A DNA stretch of 41,785 nt. It comes from Venenivibrio stagnispumantis. Lineage in GTDB: Bacteria; Aquificota; Aquificia; Aquificales; Hydrogenothermaceae. The stretch's first letter is position 1, and each line of letters begins with the position of its first letter. The position numbers and the translations under genes were made by a program. Below are positions 11,534 through 13,695 of this stretch, one piece after another. The stretch spans positions 1 through 41,785 of the forward strand of contig NZ_FXTX01000015.1 of the NCBI RefSeq assembly GCF_900182795.1, read 5' to 3'. The notes below the pieces were generated by a model. That model was not told where the DNA came from, made no database searches, and worked only from the letters and a program-made list of their open reading frames with translations.

Positions 11534-12646
11534 TTAATATTTTCTTCCCTTAATATAAAATAAAAAACCTATAATCGGAAAAATAATCATAAGAAAAGCA
11601 GATAATTTATAATTATCATTTGTTATAAATAAAAATAAAGACCAAGTTAATAAACCGGTAGTAGAAGCAATTCTTTCTGTTAAAGATAAAAAAGATAATC
11701 TTACAGAAGATTGGGATGGTGGAAAATTTTCTAAAATAAATATACGGGAAACACTCCAAAGATGTGCAAGAGAAAATCCTGCAAGAAATCCAACCATTAA
11801 AACAAAATAATTTGGAGTTATAGGTAAAATAACTAAAAATAAACTCCATAATATAAATCCAATAGGAAAAACCTTTTTTGCAGAAAATCTATCTGTTATA
11901 TATCCCCAAAAAATGCCACCTATAATACCACCAATAGCTGATAAGCCTATCACTTTATATATAAATATATCTTCAAAGTTATAAACTTTTTTAAGATATA
12001 TACTCATCATTGCAATTAGAGTATTTGCTACTTCTGTTAAAGATAAAATAGATACGATTGTAAAAATAAAATATTTATCTTTAAAAATATCTTTTAAATT
12101 TATCTTTTCTTTAAAATCCGGATTTTTTAAAAATAAGAAAGAAGGTAATGAAAGAATTAAAAAAATAAAAGCTACAAAAATATATGCTTCAGGGAGTTTT
12201 AGATATTTAGCAAGGAAAATTAAAGCAATAGCAGAGCCTATATAACCAAAAGATACACCAAGACCGGAAACAAATCCTTTACTTTCAAAATTTAAAAGTA
12301 AAGAGTTATAAAACACGAAAGCTTGCTGATGAAAAATAGCCATTAATAAAAAAATTACTAAAGATAAAAAAGGAAATGGATAACTAAAGAATAAAAAAAA
12401 TGTAGATAAAGCTGTTAAAATAGTAAATAAAATAAAAAATTGTTTTCTTAAACCTTTACTATCAGCAAATTTCCCAAGGATTATAGCAAAAAAGAAAGAT
12501 ATTAAAAATGCAAAGGCATAACTAATGCTATAAATTTTTGTATCTATAAATTTTGTGATATACAAAGGAAAAAATGTTGAATAAATTAAAGCACTTAATA
12601 TTGTTTCGCCTGTATCAAATAATGCAAAAGATAAAAATTTTTTCAT
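11534..12646 (-). CDS. MFS permease, UMF1/Atg22-like
   Basis: A 370-residue polytopic membrane protein with about 11-12 hydrophobic segments. The N-terminus FALFDTGETILSALIYSTFF resembles the ALYDxANSAF signature of the UMF1 (Atg22-like) branch of the major facilitator superfamily, and GKFADSKGLRKQF and GYITDRFSAKKVF are the usual cytoplasmic MFS loops 2-3 and 8-9. It is somewhat shorter than typical relatives (about 420). The substrate is unknown. Its start overlaps the pseudouridine synthase gene by 4 bases, so it is co-transcribed with it. Confidence 0.82.
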   Translation of the reverse strand: MKKFLSFALFDTGETILSALIYSTFFPLYITKFIDTKIYSISYAFAFLISFFFAIILGKFADSKGLRKQFFILFTILTALSTFFLFFSYPFPFLSLVIFLLMAIFHQQAFVFYNSLLLNFESKGFVSGLGVSFGYIGSAIALIFLAKYLKLPEAYIFVAFIFLILSLPSFLFLKNPDFKEKINLKDIFKDKYFIFTIVSILSLTEVANTLIAMMSIYLKKVYNFEDIFIYKVIGLSAIGGIIGGIFWGYITDRFSAKKVFPIGFILWSLFLVILPITPNYFVLMVGFLAGFSLAHLWSVSRIFILENFPPSQSSVRLSFLSLTERIASTTGLLTWSLFLFITNDNYKLSAFLMIIFPIIGFLFYIKGRKY

Positions 12647-13359
12647 TCTTTTATGGAAACAAGAGATTTTAAGGATTTTATCTCTTCTTCTGTTAGTTCT
12701 CTAAATTCACCGGTAGATAGATTTTCATCTAATTTTAAATTGCCTATTCTTATTCTTTTAAGATATTTAACAGGATGGGATAATGTTTCCATTATTCTTT
12801 TTACTATATGATATTTTCCTTCTGTTATTGTGATTAATATTTCAGACTCGGATAAAACTTTGATTTCAAATGGTTTTGTTTGATAACCATCTTTTAATTT
12901 AATTCCTTTTTTTATCTTTTCTGTATCTATATCAAAGGCATTACCTTCAACAACTGCATAATATTCTTTTTCTATCTTCCATTTTGGATGGGCTAATCTG
13001 TGTGCCAATAATCCATCTGTTGTAATTATTAATAATCCTTCTGTATCAATATCAAGCCTTCCAACCGGAAATAATTTATCAGAAAAATGGTAATCTGAAA
13101 AATAATCCATCACAGTAGGAAAATTTTCATCGTAAGTTGCAGTTATACATCCTGCCGGTTTATTAAACATAAAATAATAATCTTTCTTAAAAGATAAAAT
13201 TTCCCCTTCAAATTCTACTATATCTTTTTCTAAATCTATATGTGTAGCCGGATTTTTTATTATTTCTCCGTTTAATGAAACTAAACCTTTTTTTATTAAT
13301 TTTTGAACTTCTGACCTTGAACCAAGTCCTATAGATGATAAGAATTTATCTAATCTAAT
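12643..13359 (-). CDS. RsuA/RluB-family 16S or 23S rRNA pseudouridine synthase, apparent ATT start
   Basis: The first ATG in this frame (13170) would give only 175 residues and cut off the S4 RNA-binding domain. The frame is open 63 codons further upstream and encodes an intact S4 domain (RLDKFLSSIGLGSRSEVQKL). An in-frame TAA at 13374-13372 closes it. Between that stop and the S4 domain there is no ATG, GTG or TTG. ATT at 13359-13357 is in the expected place, 6 bases after AGGAG (13370-13366), giving 238 residues, the usual family length. The catalytic motif GRLDIDTEGLLIITTDG is intact. The enzyme isomerises one uridine in ribosomal RNA. The exact target site cannot be decided. Confidence 0.9.
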   Translation of the reverse strand: MRLDKFLSSIGLGSRSEVQKLIKKGLVSLNGEIIKNPATHIDLEKDIVEFEGEILSFKKDYYFMFNKPAGCITATYDENFPTVMDYFSDYHFSDKLFPVGRLDIDTEGLLIITTDGLLAHRLAHPKWKIEKEYYAVVEGNAFDIDTEKIKKGIKLKDGYQTKPFEIKVLSESEILITITEGKYHIVKRIMETLSHPVKYLKRIRIGNLKLDENLSTGEFRELTEEEIKSLKSLVSIKE

Positions 13360-13381
13360 ATTTATCTCCTTTTAAAAGATA

Positions 13382-13396
13382 GGGGGAAAGCCCCCC
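13382..13396 (-). terminator. hairpin after HU, just upstream of the pseudouridine synthase
   Basis: On the minus strand, 12 bases after the HU stop, GGGGGG-CTTT-CCCCC forms a strong stem followed by TATCTTTTAAAAGGAG. The U-tract is short, so it may be a leaky terminator or a processing site. The Shine-Dalgarno sequence of the next gene starts 12 bases after the stem, so that gene must be reached by read-through unless it has its own promoter, which I do not see. Confidence 0.65.
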
Positions 13397-13407
13397 TTCT
13401 TAGCAAA

Positions 13408-13695
13408 TTATTCCTTTTTGCTTTGGTTTAATGCATCTTTCAAAGATTTAGCAGCAGAGAATACAACAGCTTTTCTTGCAGGAATTGTAATCTCTTTTCC
13501 TGTTCTTGGGTTTCTTCCTTTTCTTGCTTTTCTTTCTCTAACATGGAAAACACCAAGACCAGGAAGAGCTACTCTCTCGCCTTTTGCAAGAGCTTCTGCA
13601 AGAGCTTTGATACCTGCATTAACAGCTCTTTCAGCTGCTGCTTTTGTAAGTCCTGCCTCTGCAGCAACTTTTGAAACGAGTTCTGCTTTTGTCAT
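13408..13695 (-). CDS. HU-family DNA-binding protein
   Basis: A 95-residue nucleoid protein with the complete HU signature: MTKAELVSKVAAEAGLTKAA at the N-terminus, the GLGVFHVRERKARKGRNPRTG arm with the intercalating proline, and the closing VVFSAAKSLKDALNQ. It bends and packages DNA as a dimer. The gene is richer in GC and in preferred codons than its neighbours, as expected for a highly expressed protein. It has a near-consensus promoter, a leader hairpin and AGGAGGG before the ATG. Confidence 0.96.
   Translation of the reverse strand: MTKAELVSKVAAEAGLTKAAAERAVNAGIKALAEALAKGERVALPGLGVFHVRERKARKGRNPRTGKEITIPARKAVVFSAAKSLKDALNQSKKE

Follow-up and report, generated by a model that had tools for sequence, protein, structure and literature searches.

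An RsuA-type pseudouridine synthase gene of Venenivibrio stagnispumantis probably starts at AUU behind a strong Shine-Dalgarno site

Where does translation begin when a conserved protein domain lies wholly ahead of the first conventional start codon? A pseudouridine synthase gene of Venenivibrio stagnispumantis raises this question in the 41,785-nucleotide stretch analysed here (the window), contig 15 of a 41-contig draft assembly totalling 1.56 Mb (Table 1). After the TAA at 13374–13372 the synthase frame reads AAG GAG ATA AAT ATT AGA TTA GAT, and it holds no ATG, GTG or TTG between that stop and the ATG at 13170–13168. A preliminary description had reported exactly this, a frame closed by TAA with no usual start codon up to the internal Met, and the sequence agrees. 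The same description had placed the gene at 12643–13374; the gene is the same one, but that span takes in the upstream stop, and the gene proper is 12643–13359. We propose, with a probability of roughly 0.8, that the synthase is translated from the AUU at 13359–13357, that a strong Shine-Dalgarno (SD) site offsets the poor start codon, and that initiation there would be inefficient and prone to rejection by IF3.

Table 1. Features of the synthase locus in window coordinates.
Feature	Position	Strand	Basis
MFS transporter gene, ATG overlapping the synthase stop (ATGA)	11534..12646	-	sequence, ORF list, MFS_1
RsuA-type rRNA pseudouridine synthase CDS (probable), ATT start, 238 codons + TGA	12643..13359	-	frame, translation, Pfam, PDB matches
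First in-frame ATG, codon 64 (ATT = 1), internal Met ahead of NKP motif	13168..13170	-	Met column in 30/30 orthologs
ATT, probable start codon of synthase	13357..13359	-	slot is ATT/ATA/ATC in 13/30 orthologs, each with SD 6–8 nt upstream
Shine-Dalgarno AAAGGAG, 6 nt ahead of ATT	13366..13372	-	sequence; anti-SD on contig C34; SD in 13/13 ATH orthologs vs 1/17 others
TAA in frame, closing the synthase frame upstream	13372..13374	-	sequence
Hairpin, G-run/C-run with T-rich tail, intrinsic terminator-like, HU gene	13381..13397	-	sequence; fold
HU-family DNA-binding protein gene, upstream of synthase	13408..13695	-	Pfam PF00216

The reading frame encodes a two-domain RsuA-like enzyme. Pfam assigns residues 2–45 to S4 (PF01479) and residues 61–191 to PseudoU_synth_2 (PF00849), both above cut-off. 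Because the first ATG is codon 64, S4 lies entirely upstream of it, which bears out what had been described. The best PDB matches, 1vio and 1ksk, are both RsuA and align over residues 1 to 230. The GRLDxDTEGLL motif with its catalytic Asp appears as GRLDIDTEGLL and is conserved across 30 orthologs, with DVEGLL in a single one. Among NCBIfam models RsuA ranks first (185.3 bits, vs 111 for RluB), and by these matches the enzyme is RsuA-type, nearer RsuA than RluB, RluF or RluE. The score nevertheless falls below the curated cut-off of 275 for the RsuA (Psi516) equivalog NF008097, so the exact RNA target can only be inferred; the best match makes Psi516 of 16S rRNA likely. The paralog encoded on contig C2 instead resembles RluF/RluB more closely and begins at a conventional ATG. 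Across the 30 orthologs, seven residues within positions 2–61 are invariant, while substitutions per codon position over codons 2–63 come close to saturation and carry little information.

The ATT follows a strong and well-spaced SD site. AGGAG occupies 13370–13366 and is separated from the ATT by exactly 6 nt, the spacing noted earlier. The 3' end of the 16S rRNA from the same genome reads GGATCACCTCCTTTA and contains the anti-SD CCTCCTTT, which matches AAAGGAG.

Comparison among relatives strongly supports the Ile codon as the start. We read 30 orthologs at this position, window included. The preliminary description had suggested looking for the ATT in relatives, and 13 of the 30 (the window and 12 relatives) carry an Ile codon in the same slot: nine ATT, three ATA and one ATC, spread over six genera (g1, g2, g3, g7, g8 and g9). 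Every one of these 13 has an SD match of 4–7 nt lying 6–8 nt upstream, AAAGGAG in nine cases. ATG or TTG serves as the start in the remaining 17, whether in the slot itself or just upstream as ATG/TTG-Lys-Lys, and 16 of them lack an SD. This co-variation between SD and Ile codon (13/13 vs 1/17) is the strongest evidence for the start, with a Fisher p of about 1e-7 when orthologs are counted as independent despite their kinship. On the ortholog tree the ATH label requires at least three changes, gains and losses being indistinguishable.

The slot also behaves as a start codon would. Where it is internal, after ATG/TTG-Lys-Lys, 6 of 11 orthologs have Val or Leu codons and the rest Ile; behind an SD the slot never departs from ATT, ATC or ATA (p about 0.003 for the contrast). 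A slot that varies when internal and is Ile-only after an SD is what one would predict for a codon that itself serves as the start. Orthologs with ordinary ATG or TTG starts share the N-terminus of the ATT-started synthase, as the preliminary description had implied in placing the ATT where homologs begin. One ortholog (G002) has a CTG two codons upstream that competes with its ATA.

A blind survey recovers the synthase and a known AUU gene from the whole genome. Across all 41 contigs (1,560,808 bases), 1142 gene-like ORFs were screened for coding signal ahead of their first ATG, GTG or TTG. The synthase ORF ranked 4th, and the recovery of infC, a known AUU gene, serves as a positive control that the screen works. 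Apart from these and the candidate Ile-codon starts described below, top matches resemble broken or frameshifted genes. Applied to half of another genome of the comparison, G025, the same screen returned the synthase as its top match. An AGAAGG-type SD precedes the ATT start of infC (C3:51646 region) in the window's genome; the same ATT (GTC ATT CAG GAG) recurs in most of the family genomes read, and two have ATC GTA GCA.

Several other genes appear to lack a conventional start. An MsbA-like ABC transporter gene, C2:132180-133907(+), has no usable ATG, GTG or TTG and an ATC 7 nt past AGGAG; an SD followed by ATT or ATA also occurs in its g9 orthologs and in one from g7. An MBL-fold hydrolase gene, C10:23088-23858(-), has an apparent ATT start that follows GGAGG and overlaps the preceding gene's end, and the same layout, ATT included, recurs in G025. 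For ruvX, C9:27813-28280(-), only ATC or ATA could serve as a start close to the conserved N-terminus; since TTG or ATG prevails among relatives, this Ile-codon start is local. Weaker ATT/ATC/ATA candidates, named by eye, are CorC-like C14:9419-10702(-), PHP-like C14:14108-15226(-), DUF58-like C4:65244-66164(-) and thymidylate kinase-like C16:37498-38148(-). A RimO-like ORF (by eye), G025:C1:549829-551142(-), has GGAGG-AGAAA-CTG before a conserved N-terminus with no ATG, GTG or TTG, a possible CTG start. The N-terminus of a glycosyltransferase-like ORF, C16:29350-30375(+), lies in another frame across a long A run, from either a frameshifted gene or a sequencing slip.

Does the AUU start regulate the synthase, or is it merely tolerated? 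The second alternative accepts the AUU as the true start and holds that the strong SD suffices, with no IF3-mediated or other regulatory role; we give it slightly less than even odds. It draws on the apparent Ile-codon starts that this genome also has in genes of unrelated function and on the ATG or TTG used by about half of the orthologs, from which it follows that an Ile-codon start is not essential to enzyme function. Against it, ATT is a single base change from ATG, yet the slot stays confined to ATT, ATC or ATA in six genera, and infC, whose regulation is well known, keeps its ATT in the same genomes. The unrelated genes bear on a narrower claim as well. The preliminary description had favoured control particular to an rRNA-modifying enzyme, and this idea is weakened, since the MsbA-like, MBL-fold and RuvX genes also appear to be Ile-started. 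Such starts look more like a habit of the lineage than like a device serving one enzyme.

Entry into the frame from further upstream is very unlikely. One version would start at the ATA at 13365–13363, an upstream Ile codon that is in frame and, like other Ile codons, a permissible near-cognate; it abuts AGGAG with zero spacer, and relatives carry other codons there. Another version would enter by frameshift or readthrough from HU, whose stop shares the synthase frame, but the second in-frame TAA at 13374 blocks that path and rules it out.

Initiation at the internal Met of 13170 is still harder to credit. It would yield an S4-less enzyme and leave the upstream stretch untranslated. An ATG does stand there, and the Met is invariant, so that poor conservation cannot be used as an argument against it. 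E. coli RluE is an S4-less relative, and its PDB chains match the synthase only from residue 63. However, we saw no SD ahead of this ATG, the S4 domain upstream of it shows conservation and can be aligned with solved RsuA from end to end, and orthologs with normal ATG or TTG starts have the same N-terminus. The Met adjoins the conserved NKP motif and occurs equally in orthologs that have an ATG or TTG start of their own, which marks it as a structural residue.

A sequencing error, or an ATG recently lost by mutation, is conceivable in a 41-contig draft but has almost no chance of being right; as an error it is refuted, because an Ile codon fills the slot in independent relatives. ATT stands in the same place in independent genomes from this genus and from others in the family, two of them single-contig (G008 and G025).

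The hairpin upstream of the synthase is best read as the HU terminator. The preliminary description had recognized a terminator-like hairpin before the synthase, which stands, although the distance to AGGAG is 10 nt rather than 12. It had further proposed that the hairpin adds a second layer of limitation, and this part is not supported. The hairpin directly follows the HU gene, and its folding energy is no better than that of shuffles (z -0.5). In 27 of 30 orthologs HU lies upstream of the synthase, and most of these have a similar hairpin regardless of start codon, ATG- and TTG-started ones included; G008 and G028 have neither HU nor hairpin, yet keep ATT and SD. We therefore rejected a regulatory role of the hairpin in the start. 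As a terminator it should limit readthrough into the synthase gene. Rfam found two tRNAs in the window and no leader or riboswitch family. At the other end of the gene, the synthase stop and the MFS transporter ATG overlap at 12643–12646, an arrangement that may couple transporter translation to that of the AUU-started synthase.

Together, these observations suggest how the preferred AUU start could work. The SD would compensate for the weak start codon, and initiator fMet-tRNA would decode AUU as Met. From known biology, such initiation would be inefficient and subject to rejection by IF3. The gene for IF3 itself begins at AUU in the same genomes, which makes IF3-sensitive translation of the synthase plausible. 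The start would then be one of a small lineage set of AUU, AUC and AUA starts and not unique to this enzyme. More tentatively, and on balance doubtfully, part of the Hydrogenothermaceae may keep a small IF3-responsive set of such genes comprising infC, rsuA, the MsbA-like ABC transporter, the MBL-fold hydrolase, ruvX in some genomes, and others. If so, IF3 and the 30S subunit, through their level or state, would tune an rRNA-modifying enzyme jointly with a few other genes.

The locus matters for annotation and for the study of initiation. Gene callers limited to ATG, GTG and TTG would drop 63 residues of the synthase, the whole S4 domain included. The orthologs offer a natural comparison of SD plus AUH with AUG or UUG without SD, suited to asking how SD strength makes up for a weak start codon and whether IF3 has targets besides infC. 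Our literature search found no paper reporting the ATT start of this synthase. A re-annotation of the Aquificales weighed ATT starts in general, and the passages found in it make no mention of the synthase gene.

Start codons of this kind are already known from infC, pcnB, ccpN and sigR, and the synthase is a new, well-supported case. E. coli infC starts at AUU and encodes IF3, which rejects its own start codon. Both infC and the synthase combine an AUU start, an SD and a translation-related product; in infC the product feeds back on its own start, whereas no product feedback is evident for the synthase. In E. coli pcnB an AUU start limits translation (Binns and Masters 2002, as cited in PMC13009471). 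It shares with the synthase an AUU start and an RNA-acting enzyme as product, but the enzyme is a different one, and the limitation is experimental in pcnB and inferred for the synthase. Staphylococcus aureus cvfC1 (AUU) and ccpN (AUA) have weak starts with long SDs and reduced yield, as established by ribosome profiling and reporters (PMC13009471). They pair a conserved Ile-codon start with a strong or extended SD, as the synthase does, whereas the synthase start is supported by sequence comparison. Streptomyces sigR, a non-infC gene with a GTC start, is demonstrably repressed by IF3 (PMC5472188). Like the synthase it has a rare start outside infC that ordinary gene calling misses; it differs in using GTC rather than AUU and in its demonstrated IF3 repression. 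As an enzyme, the synthase resembles RsuA, the 16S rRNA Psi516 synthase (1ksk, 1vio), in domain order and near full-length alignment, and departs from it in scoring below the strict NCBIfam cut-off and in its probable AUU start.
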